DNA of 32,814 nucleotides from positions 1 to 32,814 of IMG/VR virus record IMGVR_UViG_3300046167_000022; one strand, written 5' to 3'. The translations under genes and the position numbers were made by a program. Positions 1,374 through 32,814 of the stretch are shown piece after piece. Every line of letters starts with the position of its first letter. Position 1 is the stretch's first letter. The notes under the pieces are model-generated. The model was not told where the DNA came from. It ran no database searches and was given only the letters and a program-made list of their open reading frames with translations. Source of the DNA: a virus.

Positions 1374-1745
1374 ATGGCAGTAGTTAGTGGTAAAGCAGCA
1401 TTTGCTCACTTGGACAGCACAGAAGTTTATAACGGACAGGACACAGGCAAGTACACCTTGACTATCACCTTGGACGATGATAACGCTGATTTGTTAGCTG
1501 AGCAGGGTGTTAAGTTACGAGAGTACGAAGGTAACAAACAGCGAAAGTTCACCAGCAAGTTCAATGTAAAAGTCATTGATGCTAACGATCAACCTTTCGT
1601 TGGTAACATCCCACGAGGATCTGTGGTGCGTCTTAGCTATAAGACAGCAACACCACACCCTGTACACGGCACACCAACCTACCTAAACGCAGTACGGGTA
1701 GTAGAAGTAGCCGAAGACAGTAACGGCATAGATGCCGACCTATAG
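1374..1745 (+). CDS. Single-stranded DNA-binding protein, T7 gp2.5-like
   Basis: This 123-aa protein is judged to be a phage ssDNA-binding protein with an OB-fold, which coats single strands at the fork and interacts with helicase and polymerase. Visible features are strand-rich segments (GKYTLTITLD, RKFTSKFNVKVID, GSVVRLSYKT, YLNAVRVVEV), aromatic and basic residues on them, and an acidic C-terminus (VAEDSNGIDADL). That tail resembles the one T7 gp2.5 uses to contact partners. T7 gp2.5 is longer, about 230 aa. The start has GAGG upstream. The gene overlaps the primase-helicase by 14 bases, the expected partner. The assignment rests on pattern and context, not on a catalytic motif. Confidence 0.75.
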   Translation: MAVVSGKAAFAHLDSTEVYNGQDTGKYTLTITLDDDNADLLAEQGVKLREYEGNKQRKFTSKFNVKVIDANDQPFVGNIPRGSVVRLSYKTATPHPVHGTPTYLNAVRVVEVAEDSNGIDADL

Positions 1746-3375
1746 TGGAGAAAAGAGCACCTTTGTAAAACATGAGCCATGCCCTAAGTGTGGCTCAAGT
1801 GATGCGCTGGCCCGTTATAGCAACGGGTCGGCTCATTGTTTTGCAGCAGGGTGCAATCACCACGAAAATGTGAATGGCAACGTAGTTCAACTACAGCCCC
1901 AACCAAGGAGGCCATTAGAAGATATGACAGCATCGGGAGTCATAGCAGCAATACCGGACAGGAGGCTCAGCCAAGAGACTTGTAGAAAGTACAATGTCAT
2001 GGTGGAGTACAATGCCTCCGGTGAGATTGCAAAGCACATATACCCGTACTACAGCACCGACAGCGACGAGCTTAAAGCCACCAAGATACGTCATGTGAAG
2101 ACCAAGGACTTCCATGCTACAGGTGACATGACCACTAATGTAGGTCTGTTCGGACAGCAAACGTGCCGTGGTGGTGGTAAGTACATAACAATCACAGAAG
2201 GTGAGTTAGATGCCCTTAGCGTGTCTGAGATGTTTGAGCGCAAGTGGGATGTAGTCTCATTACGTAACGGAGCATCGTCAGCAGCTAAGGAGATCAAGGA
2301 GAACCTGGATTTCCTTGAAGGTTACGACAACGTGGTTGTTTGCTTTGACGGTGACAAGGCAGGCCAGCAGGCCATAGATGACATCAAGGACTTGTTCTCA
2401 CCAAGCAAGCTAAAGATAGTAAAGCTACCCTTGAAGGACGCTAGTGAGATGCTAGTAGCTAACAAGGTGAGAGATTTCACTGCGGCGTGGTGGAATTCCA
2501 AGGTCTATCAGCCTGACGGTATCATCCAAGGCAGTGACACATGGGATGCCCTAACCAACAAGATCAAGGTTAAGTCAATACCGTACCCTTGGCAGGGACT
2601 CAACACCTACACGAAGGGATTTAGACCATACGAGCTAGTGACGATAACGTCAGGGTCAGGCATGGGTAAATCTCAGATGGTCAGGGAGTTAGAGCACTAC
2701 TTGCTTAGGGCAACGGAGGACAACATTGGAATCCTAGCATTGGAGGAAGATGTTGCTCGGACTGCGCTGGGCATCATGTCAGTAGAGGCAGACTGTCCCT
2801 TGCACCTTGAGGAAGACCTTGATCCTGAGATAGCGTTTCCTTACTGGGAGGACACCCTTGGTACCGGCAGGTTCTACCTGTTTGACCACTGGGGCAGCAC
2901 CAGCGAGGACAACCTGTTGGCTAGGGTCAGGTACATGGCTAAGGCACTGGACTGCAAGTGGATTATCCTAGATCACCTGTCCATCGTTGTGTCAGCACAG
3001 GACAACGGTGATGAGCGCAAAGCTATTGACGCTATCATGACCAAGCTACGGTCACTGGTGCAGGAGCTAGGCGTAGGCTTGTTCCTTGTGTCACACCTGA
3101 AGCGTACCCAAGGCAAGGCACACGAGGACGGTGGGCAGATTAGTCTAAGTGAACTGCGTGGTTCGCAGGCTATAGCACAATTGTCTGATATGGTCATTGG
3201 TTTGGAGCGTGATCAACAGGACGATAACCCTGAACGACGTAATACGACAACAGTGCGTGTGCTCAAGAACCGTTACTCTGGACTAACTGGTGCATGTTGC
3301 TACCTGAAGTACGATAACTTTACTGGTAGAATGTCAGAGACGAGTAAGCCGAAGGATGTAGACAGTGCCTTATAA
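1732..3375 (+). CDS. Bifunctional DNA primase-helicase (T7 gp4-like)
   Basis: This enzyme lays RNA primers and unwinds DNA at the replication fork. An N-terminal zinc motif uses C17, C20, C36 and C41. A TOPRIM primase domain follows, with the catalytic Glu in ITEGELDAL (about residue 155) and the metal-binding FDGDKAG (205-211). The C-terminal half is a RecA-like DnaB-type helicase with Walker A GSGMGKS (about 306-312), Walker B WIILDHLS ending at D414, motif H4 around ELRGSQAIAQLSD and an arginine-finger region NRYSG. Its 547 aa are close to T7 gp4 (566 aa). It overlaps the SSB gene by 14 bases and the polymerase gene by 11, so the three are probably coupled. Confidence 0.95.
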   Translation: MPTYSGEKSTFVKHEPCPKCGSSDALARYSNGSAHCFAAGCNHHENVNGNVVQLQPQPRRPLEDMTASGVIAAIPDRRLSQETCRKYNVMVEYNASGEIAKHIYPYYSTDSDELKATKIRHVKTKDFHATGDMTTNVGLFGQQTCRGGGKYITITEGELDALSVSEMFERKWDVVSLRNGASSAAKEIKENLDFLEGYDNVVVCFDGDKAGQQAIDDIKDLFSPSKLKIVKLPLKDASEMLVANKVRDFTAAWWNSKVYQPDGIIQGSDTWDALTNKIKVKSIPYPWQGLNTYTKGFRPYELVTITSGSGMGKSQMVRELEHYLLRATEDNIGILALEEDVARTALGIMSVEADCPLHLEEDLDPEIAFPYWEDTLGTGRFYLFDHWGSTSEDNLLARVRYMAKALDCKWIILDHLSIVVSAQDNGDERKAIDAIMTKLRSLVQELGVGLFLVSHLKRTQGKAHEDGGQISLSELRGSQAIAQLSDMVIGLERDQQDDNPERRNTTTVRVLKNRYSGLTGACCYLKYDNFTGRMSETSKPKDVDSAL

Positions 3376-5095
3376 ACCAATGTTCTTGGACATAGAGACT
3401 AACGGTCTTGATCCTGACACCATATGGTTAGCAGTAACTATGCAGGACGATGTGGTACAGGAACACTACGACCGTGAAAGCCTCGCAAAGGCGCTAGAAG
3501 GTGACTTCCCTGTAGTGGGGCACAACCTGATAGGCTTTGATATGCCGGTGTTAGAGAAGCTGTGGAGCATCACGGTGGACAAGAGCAGAGTAGAGGACAC
3601 ATTAGTGCTCTCCCGTCTTGCTAACCCACAACGTGAAGGAGGCCACAGGCTGTCTAACTGGGGTGAAATCCTGGGATTCCCTAAAGGAGATCACAGTGAT
3701 TGGACTTGCCTGTCCGATGAGATGGTTGCTTATTGTATCCAAGATGTCCGTGTGACAGCTAAGGCATACAATCAGATGAAGCTAGAGCTACGCAAGTTTA
3801 GCAAGGAGTCTGTTGCCCTTGAGCATGAGACGCAGTGGATTGTACAGAAGCAGATACGTAATGGTTGGCTTTTGGACATGAGACATGCTATGGATTTGCT
3901 TGCTACCCTGAAGGAGCGCAAGCTTGTTGTGGAGGATGAAGTACACAAGGTATTCAAGCCTAAGTGGGTTGACGTTAAGAAGGTAGTGCCAAAGACCAAG
4001 AAGGACGGTAGCCTGTCTAAGGTAGGACTCACTGACGATGAATACCAGAAGGTGCAACAGTCAGGCAACAGAGAACCTTTCATGCGACAGGTACTCAAGC
4101 CATTCAACCTTGGCTCAAGACAGCAGATAGGTGAGTACCTGATTGACTTTGGATGGGAGCCAGAAAAGCTAACACCTACAGGTCAGCCAGTAGTAGATGA
4201 AGCAGTATTGTCTACAGTGAAGGACATACCACAGGCAGCGTTGATTGCTGAGTACCTGATGTTACAAAAGCGTGTTGCTCAAGTGCAGTCATGGGTAGAT
4301 GAAGCTAACCCAGACACCGACAGAGTGCATGGCTATGTTAACACCAACGGTGCTGTTACTGGTCGTATGACACATTCTAAACCAAACTTGGCCCAAGTAC
4401 CGGCAAGCTACTCACCGTATGGCAAGGAATGCCGACAGTGTTGGGTTGCCAGAGAAGGCTATAAACTTGTAGGGTTTGACGCTAGTGGCCTAGAGCTACG
4501 TATGTTGGCCCACTACATGGACGATAAGGAGTACACAAATGAAGTCATTAACGGAGACATCCACACTGCTAACCAGCACCTTGCAGGACTTGAATCAAGA
4601 GATCAGGCAAAGACTTTCATCTACGCACTTCTCTACGGGGCAGGAGATGAGAAACTTGGAACAGTGGCTTCAGCAGGCAGAGCTGCTGGTAAAACACTTA
4701 GAGAACGATTTATGTCTAATCTCACAGCATATGCAGATCTTAAAGACAGAATTGTCAGAGAGTCAGAGCAAGGAACTATTGAAGGCTTAGACGGCAGGCT
4801 GTTACATATTAGATCAGCACACTCTGCACTCAATACTTTACTGCAAAGTGCCGGTGCAATTGTTATGAAGAAAGCAATGTGTTTGCTGGAAGAGTATGCT
4901 ACAATGTGGAAACTAGACTATTACTTTGTGGGGAACATCCATGACGAAGTACAAGCGGAAGTTAGATCAGACCACGCAGACAAGTACGGAAGACTTGCAG
5001 TCTCCTGCTTGGAAGCAGCAGGAACTGAACTGGGACTCAACTGTAAACTCACAGGAGAGTACCAAGTTGGAAGTAGTTGGGCAGACACCCACTAA
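3365..5095 (+). CDS. Family A DNA polymerase with 3'-5' exonuclease
   Basis: This is the replicative polymerase. It starts at a GTG inside the helicase gene. The proofreading domain shows ExoI DIET (D9, E11), ExoII GHNLIGFD and ExoIII YCIQD (Y123, D127). The polymerase has motif A DASGLELR (D372), motif B RDQAKTFIYALLYGAG (R412, K416, Y420, Y424) and motif C HDE (526-528). Y420 aligns with E. coli Phe762 and T7 Tyr526, a residue tied to virulent phages. At 576 aa it is shorter than T7 polymerase (704 aa), and I see no clear thioredoxin-binding loop. From motif B onward the arginine codons shift to AGA (8 of 10, no CGT), whereas CGT leads upstream (8 of 19). Confidence 0.96.
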   Translation: MPYKPMFLDIETNGLDPDTIWLAVTMQDDVVQEHYDRESLAKALEGDFPVVGHNLIGFDMPVLEKLWSITVDKSRVEDTLVLSRLANPQREGGHRLSNWGEILGFPKGDHSDWTCLSDEMVAYCIQDVRVTAKAYNQMKLELRKFSKESVALEHETQWIVQKQIRNGWLLDMRHAMDLLATLKERKLVVEDEVHKVFKPKWVDVKKVVPKTKKDGSLSKVGLTDDEYQKVQQSGNREPFMRQVLKPFNLGSRQQIGEYLIDFGWEPEKLTPTGQPVVDEAVLSTVKDIPQAALIAEYLMLQKRVAQVQSWVDEANPDTDRVHGYVNTNGAVTGRMTHSKPNLAQVPASYSPYGKECRQCWVAREGYKLVGFDASGLELRMLAHYMDDKEYTNEVINGDIHTANQHLAGLESRDQAKTFIYALLYGAGDEKLGTVASAGRAAGKTLRERFMSNLTAYADLKDRIVRESEQGTIEGLDGRLLHIRSAHSALNTLLQSAGAIVMKKAMCLLEEYATMWKLDYYFVGNIHDEVQAEVRSDHADKYGRLAVSCLEAAGTELGLNCKLTGEYQVGSSWADTH

Positions 5096-7368: not shown

Positions 7369-9241
7369 GGTAGGCGTACAGGATTATTTAGGTATCCAGA
7401 TTGATTATGACAGAGAAGAAAACCTTAATGTGTTCTCACTAGAGACACTGAAGGATAGATATTTCTGGGGAGATGAGACACATGCCCAAGAAGCATTTGC
7501 CAGAGCGTCGGTCTATGGCGCAACGTATCAAGGACATACTGACTACAATCTTGCACAGCGCCTTTATAACTACGCAAGCAAGGGCTGGTTCGGTTTTAGC
7601 ACTCCTATACTTAGTAACGGGGGAACCACACGTGGTTTACCTATTAGCTGCTTTCTCAATTATGTTCCTGATTCAAGGCGTGGTCTTTCTGATCACTACG
7701 ATGAGAACATATGGTTGGCAAGTGGAGGTGGAGGCTTGGGTGGATATTGGGGTGCTGTTAGAAGTAATGGCGTTTCAACTGCTAACGGTAGTCAGTCTAC
7801 TGGTAGCATACCTTTCATGCACGTAGTTGACAGTCAAATGCTTGCCTTTAACCAAGGCGTAACAAGGAGAGGATCTTATGCAGCGTATATGGACATCAGT
7901 CATCCAGAAGTGGAAGAGTTTATCGCTATGCGAAAGACTACTGGGGGCGATCTTAATCGTAAGTGCCTTAACCTTCACAATGGAATTACAATCACAGATG
8001 AGTTCCTGGCCTCCGTCATGTCTGATGATAGCTGGAGGCTAATAGACCCTAAGTCTAAGCAGGCAGTCAAGACTGTATCCGCTAGGGACTTGTGGTGGCA
8101 GCTAGTACACACCAGAGCAGAGACAGGTGAACCCTACATTGTTAACCTAGACCGCTGTAACGAGGCTCTACCGCAGCCACAGAAGGACATGGGACTAGAG
8201 GTACGACAGAGTAACTTGTGTTCTGAGATTACACTACCAACCAGTGAAGATCGCACAGCAGTCTGTTGCTTGTCTAGTGTTAACCTAGAATACTTTGATG
8301 ATTGGAAGGATGATGAACTGTTTATCTTTGACATGATTAACATGCTGGATAACATCATCGAACACTTTATCGACAACGCTATGATAGACACAGGCATGAA
8401 CGTGTCAGCAGATAGCATAGAGGAGTTTAGAGGTTATGTTAGAGAAGATAAAACAGGCTTTGCAAAAGCCGCTTATAGTGCATATAGAGAACGTGCGGTC
8501 GGTCTTGGAGCGATGGGTTTTCATAGTTACCTTCAACGTAATGGAATCCCTTTTGAAGGAATGTACGCCTCCAGCTTCAACAATAGAGCGTTTAAGACAA
8601 TCAAAGAAAGATCTGAGATGGCTTCCAGAAGTCTGGCTAGAGACCGTGGGGAGGCTCCTGACATGGCTGGTAGTGGCCGTCGCAATTCCCATCTGCTTGC
8701 TATTGCCCCTAATGCTAGTTCTAGTATTATATGCGGTGGAACAAGTCCTAGTATTGAGCCTACAAGGGCTAACGTATTTACGCACAAAACTTTAACAGGC
8801 TCGTACAAAGTCAAGAACAAATACTTGGAGAAACTACTTGAAGAGAAAGGTACCAACACAGAGAAAACGTGGAAAGATATTGCTGCTGCTGAAGGCTCTG
8901 TTAAAGACCTACCGGAACTATCGGAAGAAGAGAAAGAAGTTTTCAAGACAGCGCCTGAACTTAACCAAATTTGGGTCATTGAACACGCCTACCAAAGACA
9001 GAAGTACGTCTGCCAAGCACAGTCAGTAAACCTGTTCTTTGAGCCGCCACCAGCTACAGCACCACAGGAGATCCACGATGAGTATCTGGAGTATGTTAAT
9101 AGCGTACATTGGACAGGAGCTAACAAACTCAAATCTATGTATTACCTGCGAACTACAGCGGCTAGAAATACAGAGAATGTTAACATCAAGATACCCAGGA
9201 TCAACCTTGAAGACGGAGAATGTTTAAGCTGTGAAGGATGA
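7358..9241 (+). CDS. nrdA: Class I ribonucleotide reductase large subunit
   Basis: This subunit reduces ribonucleoside diphosphates to deoxy forms with NrdB (10182). Active-site residues are visible: C98 in PISCFL (E. coli C225), N286-x-C288-x-E290 in SNLCSEI (N437, C439, E441), C303/C304 in AVCCLSSVNL (one equals C462), radical-transfer Y595-Y596 (Y730/Y731) and the C-terminal redox pair C622/C625. It is 627 aa against 761 for E. coli and begins almost at the barrel. The N-terminal ATP-cone is absent, so dATP feedback inhibition is probably lost. The start is GTG with GGAG seven bases upstream, within the DUF3310 gene. Four small genes separate it from nrdB. Confidence 0.96.
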   Translation: MTSKVGVQDYLGIQIDYDREENLNVFSLETLKDRYFWGDETHAQEAFARASVYGATYQGHTDYNLAQRLYNYASKGWFGFSTPILSNGGTTRGLPISCFLNYVPDSRRGLSDHYDENIWLASGGGGLGGYWGAVRSNGVSTANGSQSTGSIPFMHVVDSQMLAFNQGVTRRGSYAAYMDISHPEVEEFIAMRKTTGGDLNRKCLNLHNGITITDEFLASVMSDDSWRLIDPKSKQAVKTVSARDLWWQLVHTRAETGEPYIVNLDRCNEALPQPQKDMGLEVRQSNLCSEITLPTSEDRTAVCCLSSVNLEYFDDWKDDELFIFDMINMLDNIIEHFIDNAMIDTGMNVSADSIEEFRGYVREDKTGFAKAAYSAYRERAVGLGAMGFHSYLQRNGIPFEGMYASSFNNRAFKTIKERSEMASRSLARDRGEAPDMAGSGRRNSHLLAIAPNASSSIICGGTSPSIEPTRANVFTHKTLTGSYKVKNKYLEKLLEEKGTNTEKTWKDIAAAEGSVKDLPELSEEEKEVFKTAPELNQIWVIEHAYQRQKYVCQAQSVNLFFEPPPATAPQEIHDEYLEYVNSVHWTGANKLKSMYYLRTTAARNTENVNIKIPRINLEDGECLSCEG

Positions 9242-11209: not shown

Positions 11210-13246
11210 CTACTCTTGTTCTTCCCGACCCTTTCTAAGTTCTCTTTGTACTTCTCTAACTTCTTCGTCAGTTAAAGTATCAAAAACTTCCTCTACAATA
11301 CCGTTAGCTGCCAGCAAAGCAGCTTCTTGAGTAGGGAACTTTGCTTTATCAAAAGCAAGTAGTTTGTTAGTTAATTTAGGGTTTGTGACTATATTAGCCA
11401 ACACTACAGGAGCCACTAGAATAGATCCTCCCATAAGAGCGTCTACAGAAGCCACAGCAAGCCCTTGTCCCCCCATGCCTGCTGCCCTAGCATCACTCAA
11501 ACCTCTTCCAGGCGCACCTAAAGCTGCATACTCTTTAGATCTAAAAAGAAGTTCTCCTAAGTTGCCCTGTATAGTAGCGGATGTCTCAGACATCAAGTTC
11601 ATAACTTGTTTAACTCTAGGTGCATCTTCACCTAAGATTAGCTTTAGCCTAGCTGCATTCTCAGGTGTTTGGAATTGAGAAGCTAGATAAGAATACTTTT
11701 GATTGTTAAAGTCCCCGCCAATATCAGTAAAGATGTTTTTTAAGTAGGATTCTCTGATAGCTTGTTTAGCTTCGTCAGCAGTTTTGAAAGGTAAGCCACT
11801 AGGCATTCTTTTACTACTAGCTTTTCTCATAACTGCATAAGACTCATCTATGCTTTTCATCATAGCGGTAATCTCATCCAAACCTCCACTACGGCTTAAC
11901 ATCTTGCCTAAAGCAGAGTAAGATTCTTTCTGGGCGTTAGTGACAAACCTAGCGTTAACTTTAGGCAGGATACCGTTAATAGATACTCTATAAGCCTTCT
12001 TTAGGTCTTGATATTTAGCACCTAGTTCTGGACTTGTTCTGTCTAAACTTCTTTGAACTACTCCACGGATATTTTTAGACAGAATAGTTAACTCTCTAGC
12101 AGCTTCTCTTTGGGCACCTGTAGACCCTAGACCCCCTAAAGCAGCTATGTCTGTCTTTAGAGTCTTTTCAAACTCTAGTAACTCTTTTACAGACAAAGTT
12201 TTTAACTGGGACATAGTAGCTAAAGTATCGTCAACATACTTTAATGTAGAATCTTGTAAGTAGTTACGCAACTCCCCTTGTGATTTATTCCTAAACTTAG
12301 TAAAAGATGCTTTTAACGGAGAAAGTTCAGTACGCTGTGACCCCAGACCTTCCTGTATTTCCTGAAGCCCCCTAGAGTACAAAGTAGACATAGCTTCTTT
12401 GCCTTTGTCTATAACAGTAGACATAGCCTGTCCTAATGCTTTAGGGTCTTGAAACTCATCAGTGCCTGTTCTGTTCATTATCTCAGTTAACGCAGATGCA
12501 GAAGCATTATCTAGTCTTTCTGTAGCTTTGCCCATCTTACCTGAAGAAAACAAACCTAAGTTTGCAATGCCTTCAGCCAGCGTCTGCACAGTACTAGCCT
12601 GTCCTGTCTGTGAAGGCAGTAAAGTAGCTCCAAACTCTTCTGCTAACTTCTGAGACTCCTTCAAAGACTCTGGGCTACCTGAAGCCAGCAGTCCTCCTGC
12701 CCTAGCAATAGCTTCTCTTTGTCCTGCTTCTGCTACAACCCTGTTAGCTTGTTCACCAGCAACCATAGCTGCTTCTTTAACAAACAGTTTAGCAGCTTCA
12801 TCAGGAGACATTCTAGCTGCTTTAGCACTAAGCAGGAAAGGCTTTACCTTACTTCCTAGGCCAATTGTTACTATGTCAATACCTGCTGATATTAACGCTT
12901 GTTCAGTAGCTTCTGCATAGTCTATAGGTACTCCTTCTAAATAATCAGAAGTAATAGAGCCTCCAAAGCTACCTCCTGCTCCTCCAAGGATACCGCCTAC
13001 TACAGCGCCCACAGGCCCACCCATCAAAAAACCTGCCCCTGCCCCTGCAAGACTGCCTGATATACCTAAAGGTATTTCCATGTTCTTAGATAAAAACTCA
13101 CCGGCTGACTCAAAGAAACCCTGGTCTTCTGCTTCAGCAGGAGCTTCAGAACTGCGTATCTTTTCTAGTATTCTACTAGCAGCTTCGTAGTCTTTAGCGT
13201 CATAAGCTCTTTTATAAGCGTCTTTATGTTCTTGTAAAGTAGGCAT
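11210..13246 (-). CDS. Candidate internal virion (ejection) protein, 678 aa
   Basis: This is a large, mostly helical protein at the distal end of the late operon. After a short charged N-terminus (HKDAYKRAYDAKDYEAASRI), residues 57-100 form a Gly/Ala-rich hydrophobic stretch with GxxxG spacing (LAGAGAGFLMGGPVG). Such a segment can insert in or cross membranes, as expected of podoviral ejection proteins. The rest is Ala/Lys/Glu-rich helix with little recognisable sequence. A second hydrophobic patch (ASVDALMGGSILVAPVVLA) lies near the C-terminus. The assignment depends on composition and on position after tail genes beside two similar proteins. No lytic transglycosylase motif is evident. Confidence 0.6.
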   Translation of the reverse strand: MPTLQEHKDAYKRAYDAKDYEAASRILEKIRSSEAPAEAEDQGFFESAGEFLSKNMEIPLGISGSLAGAGAGFLMGGPVGAVVGGILGGAGGSFGGSITSDYLEGVPIDYAEATEQALISAGIDIVTIGLGSKVKPFLLSAKAARMSPDEAAKLFVKEAAMVAGEQANRVVAEAGQREAIARAGGLLASGSPESLKESQKLAEEFGATLLPSQTGQASTVQTLAEGIANLGLFSSGKMGKATERLDNASASALTEIMNRTGTDEFQDPKALGQAMSTVIDKGKEAMSTLYSRGLQEIQEGLGSQRTELSPLKASFTKFRNKSQGELRNYLQDSTLKYVDDTLATMSQLKTLSVKELLEFEKTLKTDIAALGGLGSTGAQREAARELTILSKNIRGVVQRSLDRTSPELGAKYQDLKKAYRVSINGILPKVNARFVTNAQKESYSALGKMLSRSGGLDEITAMMKSIDESYAVMRKASSKRMPSGLPFKTADEAKQAIRESYLKNIFTDIGGDFNNQKYSYLASQFQTPENAARLKLILGEDAPRVKQVMNLMSETSATIQGNLGELLFRSKEYAALGAPGRGLSDARAAGMGGQGLAVASVDALMGGSILVAPVVLANIVTNPKLTNKLLAFDKAKFPTQEAALLAANGIVEEVFDTLTDEEVREVQRELRKGREEQE

Positions 13247-13249
13247 ATG

Positions 13250-14584
13250 TTACTCTTGGTTCTTTTTTGTATAGTAATCACCGTCTTGGACAGCATCAGG
13301 GCTTGGTAAATCACTTGAGCTTCGTTTATCTCCATCTATAATAGCTTTAATCTCCCTTAGTCTAGCATTAGCTACGCTCTGAGGTGTAGCTCCTTCTGTT
13401 AAGACTCTAACGTAATCATCATAGCTATACTGTAGTTCTCTAATGTACGCATCAATAGTCTCAACATTTACTTGTGTAAGATCGTTAATAGAAGCTACAA
13501 GCTCTTGTGCTGAAGCTCTTTCGCCTTCAGTAGGATTAGACCCGAAGTTACCTAAGACACCTATCATTTGTTCTTTAGCGAGCTTATTGAATCTTTCTGC
13601 ATCAACAGCCCCTTGTGCTTCTATACCCAAGAAACTTAGAATAGCTTTGTAACTAGCAGGAACAATACCACCTGTTCTTATTCTAGTTAAAAGCTCTCGC
13701 TGTTCTTCTGCTTTTCTTAGCTGTGGAGCTAACTTTATAACTTTAGTTCTTGCTTCAGCAACTTCCTTTAACCAGAGTTTAGCTTCTTCCTCACCAATGT
13801 TAAACTTCTGCTTTATTTCAAGAGTTTCTCTTTCTAAGCGTTCCTGATGCTCATCCCTAGCTCTATCAGCAGCATCTTGATCTGCGCCACTTTGTCCTGT
13901 GGTGCCACTAATTGTTTCTACTTTGCCTGTAGGTGTAACAGTTTCTCCTTTACTATTTTTATAGATAAGTTCAGTTGTGCCGTCTTTATAAACAGCTTCT
14001 GTTACAAAGTATTCTTCTTTAGTTTGGCTATCTCTAACTTTACCCCTAGAAAAGAACCTAGCTTCTCCCGCTGTAGAACTAGGCTTAGTAATTCCCCTAG
14101 CGGTAGTAGCTGAGTCATAAATAGAGTCTAGCTGTGAAGGAGAAATACCATATTCTTGCTGTAAAGTAGCTACAGTGTCTAAGGTATTAGGAGTATAAAA
14201 ACTATCTTTGTCAACAGTTAACAACACATCTTGTATGGCAGCAGTGCCTTCTTCTATACGGTTAGCTTTAGAAGTAGTTTCTCTTTCTTTCCTAAGAGCA
14301 GTTAAGCGTTGTGTAGCCCTAACTTGTTGCTCAGGTGAACCAAACTTAACTAAAGCCGCTAACTGCTGTGCTTCAGCGTCTGGGCTGTTAGGGTCTACCT
14401 GAGCTAACGCTTGAGTCAGCTTCTCCTGCGGAGTCCTTACGTCTCTCCCAAGCAAACCACCAACACTTCTTGTCAATAGGTTCGCAGCCTGACTTCCGCC
14501 AATTAACGGTTGACCTGTTGCACTTACAGCGTTTACAGGATTATTAGTAAACAACCCTGCTAAATTACCTCCTAGTCTAGCCAT
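13250..14584 (-). CDS. Candidate internal virion protein, 444 aa
   Basis: This is a hydrophilic, helix-rich protein. The N-terminal 45 residues are Gly/Asn/Ala-rich, followed by helices with many Gln and Ala (PQEKLTQALAQVD, EAQQLAALVKFG). A central region with short strands includes TKEEYFVTEAVYKDGTTELI. The second half is long coiled coil (RARDEHQERLERETLEIKQK, then KLAPQLRKAEEQRELLTRI). AGGAGG precedes the ATG. It lies between the 368-aa and 678-aa proteins with only 3-13 bases between genes. Position and coiled-coil composition fit an internal core or ejection protein, but no family is recognised. Confidence 0.55.
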   Translation of the reverse strand: MARLGGNLAGLFTNNPVNAVSATGQPLIGGSQAANLLTRSVGGLLGRDVRTPQEKLTQALAQVDPNSPDAEAQQLAALVKFGSPEQQVRATQRLTALRKERETTSKANRIEEGTAAIQDVLLTVDKDSFYTPNTLDTVATLQQEYGISPSQLDSIYDSATTARGITKPSSTAGEARFFSRGKVRDSQTKEEYFVTEAVYKDGTTELIYKNSKGETVTPTGKVETISGTTGQSGADQDAADRARDEHQERLERETLEIKQKFNIGEEEAKLWLKEVAEARTKVIKLAPQLRKAEEQRELLTRIRTGGIVPASYKAILSFLGIEAQGAVDAERFNKLAKEQMIGVLGNFGSNPTEGERASAQELVASINDLTQVNVETIDAYIRELQYSYDDYVRVLTEGATPQSVANARLREIKAIIDGDKRSSSDLPSPDAVQDGDYYTKKNQE

Positions 14585-14597
14585 TACTTACTCCTCC

Positions 14598-15704
14598 TTA
14601 AAATAAACCTGCAAGTGCAGATAACAAACCACCAGCGCCTGTAGCTCCTCCAGCAGCAGCAGCACCTACGTTACCTTGGGCACCTAACAGCGCACTGTAG
14701 ATACTTGCAAGACCTTCAGTTCTAGCCTTCTCAGCAGCTATACGTCCCTCTAGTCCTGTCATTGCTGCTTCACCTCGTAGACCAGCACCCTCACGTCTCC
14801 CAAGATCAGCAATACTAGCAATGTTCACGGCTGGAGTCAGTGAAGCAAGTAGCTGTTGTTCAGGCGAGTATTGTAACCCTAAAGCAGCACCAATGTTACC
14901 TAATTGTGCTTGCTGTAGTGAAGCAGGTAATGCAGCAGCACCAGAGCCTAAACCAAACATACTTTGTGCAAGTCCTGCTTGTTGCATTTGCTCTGCTTGT
15001 GCTTGCTGTAGCGCACCTAGAGATGCTCTAGCCTTAGCTTCTTCCTGTGCTTGTGCTAAAGCAAACTGCTCAGGAGAACCACCAAACTGTGCTGTACGTA
15101 GACCTGTACGTCCCTGTGAAGCTAGACGTTCTTCCAATGCAAGCTGTTGACGTTGCTCTTCAGGGCGTTGAGTAGCTCTAATGCGCTCATAGACATCAGC
15201 TTCTCTCTGTGCCATAGGAGCCATAGCACCCGTTAGGAAGCCACCTACGCCTCCTAGAGCCTGTTCTTGGATACCTGATACATCTGGTACACCTGCTCCC
15301 ATACCGCCAAGTAAGGTGCCTGTGAGAGCTTGTAGCTTACGTTGTTGTTCAGCTTGCTCTGGAGATAATGTAGTAGCAAACCCACCTTCAGGTGTGGTAC
15401 TTACGCCACCAAAGCCAGTGGATACTGTAAAGGGTCTAAAGGCAGCATCTGTTTTAGCTCTCTCCCCTATGTTAAGTGCTTCTTCCTGTGCAGTCTTACC
15501 TAAAGAACTTAAATTATCAAAAAGATTATAACCTAAGCCTGCACCAAGAAGTGAGTCAGCAGCGCCTCCTGTAAAGAAGTTACCTAAAAGACCTCCAAGT
15601 CCTCCTGAGCTACCAGAGCCTCCCATAGTGCCACTTAAATCACCAAGAAGTTGATCCCCTAGTATTTCTCTTAGCTGATCTTGAGTTAAAGTTTCATCAC
15701 TCAT
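14598..15704 (-). CDS. Candidate internal virion protein, Ala/Gly/Gln-rich, 368 aa
   Basis: The N-terminal third is Gly-rich with hydrophobic patches (GGLGGLLGNFFTGGAADSLL). The middle is a Gln/Ala/Arg-rich helix (PEEQRQQLALEERLASQGRT, ALAQAQEEAKARASLGALQQ). The C-terminus is hydrophobic and Gly/Ala-rich (GGATGAGGLLSALAGLF). This amphipathic, low-complexity build is common in podoviral internal virion proteins, which leave the capsid to form a channel. A purine-rich AGAGAGAA site precedes the ATG. It follows the XhlA-like gene and starts the three-gene set at the end of the late operon. The precise role is inferred. Confidence 0.55.
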   Translation of the reverse strand: MSDETLTQDQLREILGDQLLGDLSGTMGGSGSSGGLGGLLGNFFTGGAADSLLGAGLGYNLFDNLSSLGKTAQEEALNIGERAKTDAAFRPFTVSTGFGGVSTTPEGGFATTLSPEQAEQQRKLQALTGTLLGGMGAGVPDVSGIQEQALGGVGGFLTGAMAPMAQREADVYERIRATQRPEEQRQQLALEERLASQGRTGLRTAQFGGSPEQFALAQAQEEAKARASLGALQQAQAEQMQQAGLAQSMFGLGSGAAALPASLQQAQLGNIGAALGLQYSPEQQLLASLTPAVNIASIADLGRREGAGLRGEAAMTGLEGRIAAEKARTEGLASIYSALLGAQGNVGAAAAGGATGAGGLLSALAGLF

Positions 15705-30166: not shown

Positions 30167-31417
30167 TTAATATCCTGTTACTGCGTCTAAGACCTCGAGA
30201 TCATCAATCTCAAAGTCATAATTGTAGGCTACCTTAGCCAGTTGGTCTGTGTACGCAAAGGCATCCACAAGGTCATCATGTGTTAACGGGTCAGGGAACT
30301 GGAATAACTGATCCATGAATCTACTATTCCACTCACCTTGCCCTAGAGTAATCTGACCATTCTCAAATCTACCCTGTAGCGCCCACATGATTCTGTCTGT
30401 TTTCTTTCTGTTGCCGTGTGTTAGTTCCTCTACAACAAAGAATCTCCCCTGTTGCTTCATCAAGTCCATTAAGGGTGACATCACAGCTTGCTTAGAGATA
30501 CCACGCTCAATACCTACACTGATAGGTCTGTAGTCTCTAACAGCCTCAAAGATCTTCCTAGCTGTCTCCGCTAAGTCCCACCTACCGTATATGATGTTTT
30601 CTAGGTGCCAGCCATTCTCATTTACTTTAACAACAGCAATAGCTGATTCATCCAGCTTAGAGTTTTTAGTTCTCTTCTTACTTACGTCCTCAAAGCCAGC
30701 TAAGTCAATGCTTATGTAGTAGTCACCTATCTCTGGTGCTTCACCAAACTTAACCCACTCCTCCTTGAACATCTCTGAGCCTCTAGCTTCAAATGATGCC
30801 ATGAACTCTTGACGGAATGCGTAGGATGACATAGACTTCTTAGCTAGGTCAATCTCGTCTGGGTCTAACAACTCATTGTCATAACTTGTAAAGTGCCATG
30901 CAGTATAGGACTCATCGTCCTCTAGCTCTGCGTACTTGTACAGGTCATAGAAGTGATTACGCCCCATAGGTGTACCAATGAACAATGCAGCACCCTTCTG
31001 GTCAGCCAAGGCAGGTCTAAGGATCTGCTCAAAGACCTCTGGCTTCATGTCAGCGTACTCGTCCATCACTAGGAACTTTAGTGACACACCACGCATAGTC
31101 TCTGGTCTGTCAGCACCCTTGAGGCTGATCGTTGCACCGTTGACCAGTTTAATCTGTAGGTTGTTTATGTGTGCGTTAGATACAACAGGGTGCGCCAGCT
31201 CCAATAGTGTTTGCCACATGATGTCTCTGGCCTGTCCTTGTGTTGGAGCTACATAGAACACATGGCCTCTGTCTGCCTGTAGAGCATTAACAATCAACAT
31301 CCAAGCAGCTAGTCTTGACTTACCTGTACGTCTACCAGCAGCTACAATCTTAAATCTAGTAGGGTCTTCCCATACTTGTTGCTGCCAATCCAGTAGTTGT
31401 ATGTTAAGATCAGTCAT
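30167..31417 (-). CDS. terL: Terminase large subunit
   Basis: This 416-aa motor-nuclease packages DNA into the head. The ATPase has Walker A AAGRRTGKSR (about residues 26-35), Walker B FLVMDEYADM and coupling motif GTPMGR. The nuclease domain has SIDLAGFED (first acidic residue), ERG in the middle and DDLVDAFAY at the end, forming the RNase H-like metal site. I chose the ATG at 31417, which overlaps the upstream gene in ATGACTGA; an ATG at 31435 would add six residues. Neither start has a strong ribosome site, so translation is probably coupled to the 58-aa gene. Confidence 0.95.
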   Translation of the reverse strand: MTDLNIQLLDWQQQVWEDPTRFKIVAAGRRTGKSRLAAWMLIVNALQADRGHVFYVAPTQGQARDIMWQTLLELAHPVVSNAHINNLQIKLVNGATISLKGADRPETMRGVSLKFLVMDEYADMKPEVFEQILRPALADQKGAALFIGTPMGRNHFYDLYKYAELEDDESYTAWHFTSYDNELLDPDEIDLAKKSMSSYAFRQEFMASFEARGSEMFKEEWVKFGEAPEIGDYYISIDLAGFEDVSKKRTKNSKLDESAIAVVKVNENGWHLENIIYGRWDLAETARKIFEAVRDYRPISVGIERGISKQAVMSPLMDLMKQQGRFFVVEELTHGNRKKTDRIMWALQGRFENGQITLGQGEWNSRFMDQLFQFPDPLTHDDLVDAFAYTDQLAKVAYNYDFEIDDLEVLDAVTGY

Positions 31418-31586
31418 AGAAATACTTGACCACATAGATAGCTTCGCTATCGCGCAGCCTTGCTGCTAACTCATCCAAGTCTTTCTCTTCCTCACACTCA
31501 TACTCAACATCTAACTCAGGATCTCCATCCCAGTTTAGATCTTCTTGCTGTGCTAAGGTCTTCTTGTACTCTTTGTTAGTAAGCAC
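31410..31586 (-). CDS. 58-aa acidic protein with GTG start
   Basis: A GTG at 31586 preceded by GGAG with a 10-base gap opens a frame that ends at TGA (31412-31410) inside the terL start. The protein begins with a basic helix (LTNKEYKKTLAQQEDLNW) and continues with a strongly acidic stretch (ELDVEYECEEEKDLDEL). It ends in DSEAIYVVKYFYD. Its coupling to terL suggests a small packaging helper, but no family is recognised. Its C-terminal codons run through the palindrome at 31437-31451, so that hairpin is translated. Confidence 0.6.
   Translation of the reverse strand: MLTNKEYKKTLAQQEDLNWDGDPELDVEYECEEEKDLDELAARLRDSEAIYVVKYFYD
31437..31451. repeat. Palindrome GATAGC-TTC-GCTATC
   Basis: Six-base arms surround a 3-base loop, followed on + by CGCGC. 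A close relative sits at 31592-31606. This copy lies inside the 3' part of the 58-aa gene. Confidence 0.8.
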
Positions 31587-31622: not shown

Positions 31623-31975
31623 TAGTTATACGTCCACATTACAGGTGTATCAGTAGCTCTAATGTCTACATGCACAAAACCTCCAGCAACACCAATACCA
31701 GTAAAGCCTAACTTAATAGCATTCTTTACTACAGTGTACCTTTGTAAACCTGAAGACACAGCTATGTCCGCTGCTATGCCTTGTGCATGTGTACCTGGTC
31801 GTTGTTTACCTAGCTCAATAGGATGGTCAGGTGATCTATAGCCACTTGTGATAACAAAAGGAAAACCACAGTGCTCTCTAAGTTCATCCAAGGCATATAT
31901 TAACTCATCCTCTATTTCATTCTCGCCTGTGGCTTGACAAGCAAACTCATCCCTACTGAAATACTTAAACGTCAT
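31622..31975 (-). CDS. M15-family peptidase, probable endolysin
   Basis: This 117-aa zinc peptidase probably cuts peptidoglycan crosslinks at lysis. It has the M15A layout: SGYRSPDHP (44-52), zinc ligands H63 and D70 in GTHAQGIAAD, and H102 with D104 in GFVHVDIR. The N-terminus (TFKYFSRDEFACQATGEN) matches the usual start of phage M15 enzymes. The ATG at 31975 has AAGGAG upstream and overlaps the small terminase stop by 11 bases; a longer frame upstream lies wholly in the terminase gene. It has no signal peptide, so it needs the holin. Its position between the terminase genes is unusual. Confidence 0.88.
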   Translation of the reverse strand: MTFKYFSRDEFACQATGENEIEDELIYALDELREHCGFPFVITSGYRSPDHPIELGKQRPGTHAQGIAADIAVSSGLQRYTVVKNAIKLGFTGIGVAGGFVHVDIRATDTPVMWTYN

Positions 31976-32366
31976 TGTTGGTGTATTCTCCTTCAATAGG
32001 GTCATTGGAGTTGTCATTATTCTGTGATGAGATGGTACTAGGGACACCTGAGATAGTAATTTGTACAGACTGTCTACCACCAGCACTATCCTTCTCAAAG
32101 TAACTAAGGGGTAACATCCTGTCCATGACTAGTTTCCAAGCTGCTGCTTGATTCTTATGGTCATCATTAAGTGCTGCATCAAATATACTGTCTAACACTC
32201 TACGGGACTTAGGGCTAGCTAACATCCTAGCCTTGTACTCATTGATAATTGAAGCATCACCTTTAGGTCTACCTACCTTACCTCTAGAGCCAGTAGTCTT
32301 CTCAACTATCTCACCCTTCCTAGGTCTACCTCGCTTACGCTTTGGAGGATCATCTTGATTATCCAT
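31965..32366 (-). CDS. Small terminase subunit candidate with AT-hook-like N-terminus
   Basis: This 133-aa protein is the first late gene after promoter P1 and lies two genes before the large terminase. The N-terminus has two GRP motifs in basic surroundings (PKRKRGRPRKGE and KVGRPKGD), as in AT-hooks that bind the minor groove of AT-rich DNA. A helical middle follows (NEYKARMLASPKSRRVLDSI, then HKNQAAAWKLVMDRMLPLSY). The C-terminus is Ser/Asn/Asp-rich and probably disordered. Recognition of the packaging site by the small terminase fits all of this. The ribosome site is AAGGTAAA. Confidence 0.78.
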   Translation of the reverse strand: MDNQDDPPKRKRGRPRKGEIVEKTTGSRGKVGRPKGDASIINEYKARMLASPKSRRVLDSIFDAALNDDHKNQAAAWKLVMDRMLPLSYFEKDSAGGRQSVQITISGVPSTISSQNNDNSNDPIEGEYTNNDV

Positions 32367-32403
32367 AATGTATTTACCTTAACATTCTTTAAGATACCTC
32401 TTT

Positions 32404-32432
32404 ATTATAGCATACTTTTTAGCGTTTGTCAA
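32404..32432 (-). promoter_or_regulatory. Late promoter P1, perfect sigma70 consensus
   Basis: On the - strand: TTGACA (32432-32427), 17-base spacer, TATAAT (32409-32404), with extended -10 TG (GTATGCTATAAT). It drives the small terminase at 32366 and the operon beyond. The downstream leader also resembles that of P2, both containing AAGGTAAA-type sequence before the ATG. Confidence 0.92.
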
Positions 32433-32453
32433 GTACTTTTTACTGTTATTTTC

Positions 32454-32476
32454 TTGACTGAGTCAAAGTTTTGACT
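32454..32476. promoter_or_regulatory. Operator-like triple TTGACT element upstream of P1
   Basis: TTGACT (32454-32459), its inverse AGTCAAA (32461-32467) and TTTGACT (32470-32476) form two overlapping inverted repeats, the second with perfect 7-base arms and a 2-base centre. It starts 22 bases upstream of the -35 box of P1. A dimeric regulator or activator site is likely, but no such regulator gene is recognised here. Confidence 0.5.
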
Positions 32477-32636
32477 TTACTTGTGTTAACAAGAGGTTAC
32501 ATAAGTTAGTAAATGCTTACTTTTTTATTAATTTACTGTTGTTTTCTAAATTCTACTTTTGAGTACTGGAGTGCCTACTACAATTATTCATCAGCGCCAC
32601 AGCCCCTCCCCCGTACCCAATCTGTTAGCCCACCTT

Positions 32637-32793
32637 AGTACAACAGTTAGACTTAGGCGCACCACAGAGTACAACAGTTAGACTTAGGCGCACCACCTGG
32701 CGCTAACGGTTAGACTTAGGGGCGCAACAGAGTACAACAGTTAACCTAAGTCTACCTGAGAGGACTTAGCCTAACGGTTAGACTTAGGGGCGC
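32637..32793. repeat. Direct-repeat array around core TTAGACTTAGG
   Basis: Two perfect 29-base repeats (32637-32665 and 32668-32696) are followed by two perfect 23-base repeats that begin CTAACGGTTAG (32703-32725 and 32771-32793). All four contain TTAGACTTAGG. Between the latter two is an inverted copy, CCTAAGTCTA at 32745-32754. The array resembles iterons or the CCTAAAG-type short repeats that flank T7 terminal repeats. Confidence 0.85.
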
Positions 32794-32814
32794 TTGAGAA
32801 TGCTGAAGAGTGTG

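Follow-up and report, generated by a model that had tools for sequence, protein, structure and literature searches.

A conserved repeat array of exchangeable class in the divergent intergenic region of an uncultured marine phage, a candidate replication-origin or control region

In an uncultured marine phage, the early and late genes point in opposite directions, and between them lies a repeat array that is kept in dozens of related viral contigs and that is replaced, at the same spot in sister phages, by arrays of other classes, among them clusters of DnaA boxes and sigma-54 type sites. Judging from sequence comparisons, we give a probability of about 0.45 to the reading that this array is an iteron-like row of protein-binding sites, part of a replication-origin/control region. 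The window analyzed here is a whole virus record, a linear fragment of 32,814 bp with no end repeats of its own. The features referred to below are the following (positions in the window).

32637–32793, + strand: whole repeat array, class A (from the repeat, relative and shuffle comparison)
32641–32657, + strand: unit 1, CAACAGTTAGACTTAGG, within the first 29-mer (32637–32665)
32672–32688, + strand: unit 2, CAACAGTTAGACTTAGG, within the second 29-mer (32668–32696)
32704–32720, + strand: unit 3, TAACGGTTAGACTTAGG, within the first 23-mer (32703–32725)
32745–32755, − strand: inverted core, one mismatch
32772–32788, + strand: unit 4, TAACGGTTAGACTTAGG, within the second 23-mer (32771–32793)
32540–32617, no strand: non-coding block, CTACTACAATWAT ... 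CCCCTCCCCCG, whose outline is common to all array classes
32404–32432, − strand: perfect sigma-70 promoter of the late operon, TTGACA-17-TATAAT
32367–32590, no strand: AT-rich tract that may serve as an unwinding element (72.8% AT; whole window, 55.8%)
31965–32366, − strand: first late gene, encoding a conserved protein of 133 aa that carries AT-hook-like motifs (TerS-like below; small terminase by position only)
30167–31435, − strand: large terminase subunit
1374–1745, + strand: gp2.5-like single-strand DNA-binding protein (SSB), early operon
1732–3375, + strand: T7-type DNA primase/helicase, early operon
3365–5095, + strand: DNA polymerase, early operon

The array and its genomic setting

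The original prediction described two perfect 29-mers, two perfect 23-mers and an inverted copy built on a common core, and all of these are found at the positions given above, the 29-mers reading AGTACAACAGTTAGACTTAGGCGCACCAC, the 23-mers CTAACGGTTAGACTTAGGGGCGC, and the inverted core carrying one mismatch. Altogether, the array consists of a 17-bp unit, (C/T)AAC(A/G)GTTAGACTTAGG, present four times in direct orientation and once inverted, with a spacing of mostly 31–32 bp. It is well above chance expectation: with at most one mismatch, the core TTAGACTTAGG occurs six times in the window where 1.14 occurrences are expected, a count reached in none of 100 shuffles, and five of these six matches fall in the 150 bp of the array, the sixth (position 8048) being located within the ribonucleotide reductase gene. 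Similarly, the longest exact direct repeat in region 32367–32814 measures 29 bp, versus 12 bp at most in shuffled sequences. The array region is non-coding and lies upstream of ORF 31965–32366; Rfam returned no RNA element for it, and a plasmid search returned no iteron match.

In the dozens of related contigs that keep the array, its copy number varies from two to six per phage, with a dominant period of 31 bp and periods of 29 and 32 bp as well. The alignment of all copies present in the relatives yields a unit consensus of about (A/C)(C/T)AACAGTTAGACTWAGG, in which a small number of changes is tolerated. The units face the early genes in most cases, inverted copies being occasional. Neither the array nor the 133-aa protein has a counterpart in cultured phages, and the only match with a deposited phage is a short one, in the endolysin gene of Pseudoalteromonas phages. 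The genome collection gave only four matches, relatives by their large terminase (L174–L177), all of them in bins assembled from metagenomes and assigned to different phyla (Sphingobacteriales, Verrucomicrobiales and Flavobacteriales). Being probably misbinned phage contigs, they give no indication of the host. No tRNA genes were found in four relatives.

The late genes, on the − strand, run leftwards from the array and comprise those for the 133-aa protein, the large terminase, the portal and an M15 endolysin, whereas the early genes, on the + strand, run from the left end of the window and encode the gp2.5-like protein, the primase/helicase and the DNA polymerase, as well as an exonuclease, endonuclease I and the ribonucleotide reductase. 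From the late to the early side, the region between the two operons is made of the sigma-70 promoter, the AT-rich tract, the shared non-coding block, which ends in CCTCCCCCG and sits at the late-gene edge of the array, then the array itself and the early genes. Note that the block, roughly 170–250 bp upstream of the TerS-like gene, is a candidate cos or pac site. The 133-aa protein has no Pfam match and no significant PHROG match, and its structure model displays a low-confidence fold; hence the small terminase that had been placed beside the array keeps in its favor the gene position and the AT-hook-like motifs but finds no backing in either database. Among the 20 proteins scanned with PHROGs there is no T7-type RNA polymerase, and a Rep-like initiator is likewise absent from the proteins scanned, a set that takes in part of the small early ORFs. 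Three large late proteins (678, 444 and 368 aa, 11210–15704, − strand) have no PHROG match.

The array had been placed at the genome edge, which holds for this contig alone. Three related contigs (L101, L079 and L103) run beyond the window end through about 1.4–2 kb of early genes and then into the window start, so that the window record is incomplete at both position 1 and position 32814; in the relatives, the missing stretch consists of small, highly variable early ORFs. Furthermore, one record (G008) shows a self-overlap of 2,573 bp, giving a 34,343-bp circular map in which the array is internal. Contig ends are mildly enriched just past the array, 300–900 bp from the TerS-like gene start, an excess consistent with breaks of the assembly in this variable part of the early genes; in these contig data, the ends near the array have no end sequence in common. 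A genome end or terminal repeat at this place is thus disfavored by the through-running contigs, the over-wrapped G008 record and the differing sequences of the contig ends. The cumulative GC skew reaches its minimum no more than a few hundred bp away from the array in nearly all near-complete records; in one record (G005), the detrended minimum lies elsewhere. GC skew alone is no proof of an origin because transcription also diverges at the array region.

Array classes at one spot in sister phages

For about 100 loci, to which more were added later, we compared what lies upstream of the 133-aa protein gene. Four classes, A to D, account for part of the loci compared, which leaves a remainder unassigned. 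Class A, defined by the window motif, comprises 32 distinct loci with at least two exact cores. Class B is characterized by DnaA boxes (TTATNCACA), at least three of which are present in 12 distinct loci, with a maximum of 11 (L145) where fewer than 0.1 are expected. In several loci, these boxes form runs with an 11-bp period, i.e. with 2-bp gaps, and the clustered low-affinity DnaA sites of Escherichia coli oriC are separated by the same 2-bp gap (PMC6070618). In class C, each locus contains two to four sigma-54 type sites (TGGCAYR-N4-TTGCW), most of them in the same direction, towards the early genes; in records G001, G003 and G005, such sites occur nowhere else. Six loci (L147, L109, L133, L138, L085 and L086) have two to four consensus sigma-54 (−24/−12) sites in one intergenic region. 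Class D, a looser one, was spotted by eye from repeated TTGACA/TGTCAA. Classes A and B co-occur in none of these loci, and B and C are found together in a few of them. The array region of the window contains no cluster of DnaA boxes, nor even a single one, and sigma-54 sites are absent from the whole window; with no direct terminal repeat in the window and an internal array in the relatives, the window array is to be filed neither as a DnaA origin, nor as a sigma-54 promoter array, nor as a T7-type terminal-repeat marker.

Two further loci deserve mention. In L110, about 330–370 bp from the TerS-like gene start, there is a short tandem repeat, GTGAGATGC, in several copies, together with GCGCACGC-rich sequence, which is perhaps a further array class at the same position. 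The L145 contig ends in some 70 bases that repeat, in reverse complement, its own TerS-like promoter and the start of that gene; this is either a fold-back or chimera of the assembly or a genuine inverted duplication.

The class of an array changes between phages that are otherwise nearly identical. L083 (class C) and L224 (class D) have TerS-like proteins that are 100% identical, primases that are 99% identical and SSBs that are 98% identical; the corresponding figures are 99%, 98% and 88% for L109 (class C) and L153 (class B). In both pairs, the late-side flanks are 76–100% identical per 60-bp bin, and identity drops to 40–60% in the bins of the array. L107 differs from L133, to which it is 86–98% identical elsewhere, by a 96-bp insertion containing two DnaA boxes, about 380–450 bp from the TerS-like gene start. 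Conversely, motif A is kept in L232 and L240 with a primase and a TerS-like protein that are only 73% and 64–67% identical, respectively, and in L232, L240 and L230 with an SSB that is 34% identical.

Several phage proteins were considered as determinants of the class and rejected. The primase/helicase is at least 91% identical in the full-length matches from class A relatives and at most 77% identical in the other classes, and an early apparent link pointed to the SSB or the primase; it fails on the two pairs above, given their 98–99% identical primases, and, for the SSB, on the three loci that retain motif A. The early genes e79 and e62 fail as well, since L071 keeps motif A with identities of 39% and 44%, respectively. 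Finally, the original prediction had proposed the small terminase as a possible binder of the array, which is unlikely: TerS-like proteins that are 99–100% identical sit beside entirely different arrays.

The same pairs bear on packaging. It is very improbable that the array is a packaging site (cos or pac) or a terminal-repeat marker read by the small terminase, even though it lies near the likely small-terminase gene, close to which cos and pac sites are often found, the product of this gene has AT-hook-like motifs and contig ends are somewhat enriched at 300–900 bp from its start. The specificity of the array does not track the TerS-like protein in L083 versus L224 or L109 versus L153, contigs run through the array and end in differing sequences, and block 32540–32617, being common to all classes, would be a better candidate.

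As the content of the array swaps independently of the TerS-like protein, the primase and the SSB, each of them is unlikely to be its specific reader, and the fact that they stay 88–100% identical through such swaps suggests a binder supplied by the host. A host protein would be the simplest candidate for class A, since two of the other classes consist of consensus sites for host proteins. We therefore infer that the class A binder is more probably encoded by the host than by the phage, a small phage protein being possible.

Exchange on a larger scale is apparent in G001 and L086. Compared to class A phages, they diverge from the TerS-like gene through the early genes (SSB 33%, primase 76% identity), and their large terminase, portal, capsid, exonuclease and endonuclease are 94–99% identical, a pattern that reads as block exchange by recombination.

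Possible roles of the array

If the array belongs to an origin, several copies of a sequence-specific protein would bind the repeats, mostly about three helix turns apart and all on one DNA face; the resulting complex would help open the adjoining AT-rich tract or recruit the replication-start machinery. The T7-type primase/helicase and the polymerase of the phage would then replicate from the array region, and the clustered DnaA boxes or sigma-54 promoter sites that occupy this spot in sister phages would serve the same purpose. We favor an origin-type site because of the position between divergent operons, the GC-skew minimum, the AT-rich neighbor and the replacement by DnaA boxes in sister phages. 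Of the three roles first envisaged (origin, packaging or terminal-repeat marker), the origin-type one gains from these observations, and the other two find no support, given the through-running contigs and the circular map of G008. Against an origin stand the confounding of GC skew by divergent transcription, the detrended minimum of G005, which is not at the array, and the sigma-54 class, which suggests a role in transcription; moreover, a strict origin would not usually be expected to exchange its initiator sites while the replisome stays the same.

The sigma-54 class favors the main rival, namely transcriptional control, in which a host regulator or, for the sigma-54 class, an alternative form of the polymerase binds the repeats with no direct role in replication, either turning on the early operon or timing an early/late switch. 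This reading is possible, if rather doubtful. The array has divergent operons on either side and is upstream of the early one, the two to four sigma-54 sites of sister loci mostly face the early genes, as do the class A units, these sites are absent elsewhere in G001, G003 and G005, and DnaA is also a transcription regulator. However, class A units display no paired −35/−10 boxes at fixed spacing, clusters of up to 11 DnaA boxes are more than a simple operator needs, and the GC-skew minimum and the AT-rich tract also fit an origin.

The array could also act as a decoy: in multicopy phage DNA, it would absorb DnaA, the sigma-54 polymerase or the class A factor, in the way that datA of E. coli titrates DnaA, and thereby shut down host functions. 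Two classes made of consensus sites for host proteins would suit such titration, and so would an array content that varies freely alongside constant phage replication proteins. A decoy might be located at any place, yet the arrays always occupy the same divergent intergenic spot; they are small (2–11 sites), and we found no precedent in the literature searched, the coverage of which was partial. We consider titration unlikely.

Whether or not replication starts at the array, its exchange calls for a broader proposal, which we put forward tentatively and at less than even odds: the fixed site between the divergent operons of this T7-replisome lineage may be a rapidly exchanged docking module for host factors, accommodating arrays for different host proteins. 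The partners, put forward just as tentatively, might be DnaA, the sigma-54 polymerase and a putative protein reading AACNGTTAGWCTWWGG. If this is true, the phage recruits the host system that suits it, or titrates it, the rest of the phage genome remaining constant. To our knowledge, the way replication starts in phages with a T7-type replisome and no recognized RNA polymerase of their own is unsettled. The exchange of DnaA boxes, sigma-54 sites and the class A motif at a fixed locus of near-identical genomes amounts to a natural experiment; it points to host-protein partners and renders the origin directly testable, as well as the identity of the class A binder.

Comparison with known systems

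A repeat array in an origin/control region is of a known kind, and the surprising part is the exchange of host-factor sites. We found no report of an exchangeable array of this type in the literature searched, which is weak evidence given its partial coverage. T7 carries CCTAAAG arrays beside its terminal repeats, and the original prediction had drawn a parallel with them. Both consist of short repeats in non-coding DNA, but sequence and period differ, the window has no terminal repeat and the array is internal in the relatives, so this parallel does not hold. With datA, the DnaA titration site of E. coli, the likeness would be limited to the DnaA-box clusters of class B, the array place of the window being free of such boxes.

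The primary origin of T7 is made of tandem promoters and an AT-rich segment. The early operon is similar, with its T7-type primase/helicase, gp2.5-like protein, endonuclease I and polymerase, and the sigma-54 class has tandem promoter-type sites at the spot; unlike in T7, there is no T7-type RNA polymerase among the 20 proteins scanned and class A units are not recognizable promoters. Iteron and DnaA-box origins (oriC, plasmid iterons, lambda ori, P1 oriR) differ from the window array in that its motif is no DnaA box, is exchanged between near-identical phages and is accompanied by no Rep-like initiator gene among the window proteins scanned. Yet they resemble it in their short, asymmetric and regularly spaced sites, about 17–22 bp long in iteron origins and here four direct copies of a 17-bp unit at 31/32 bp in non-coding DNA, in the adjoining tract that is AT-rich by composition and in the GC-skew minimum, and at this very spot sister phages have true clusters of DnaA boxes.
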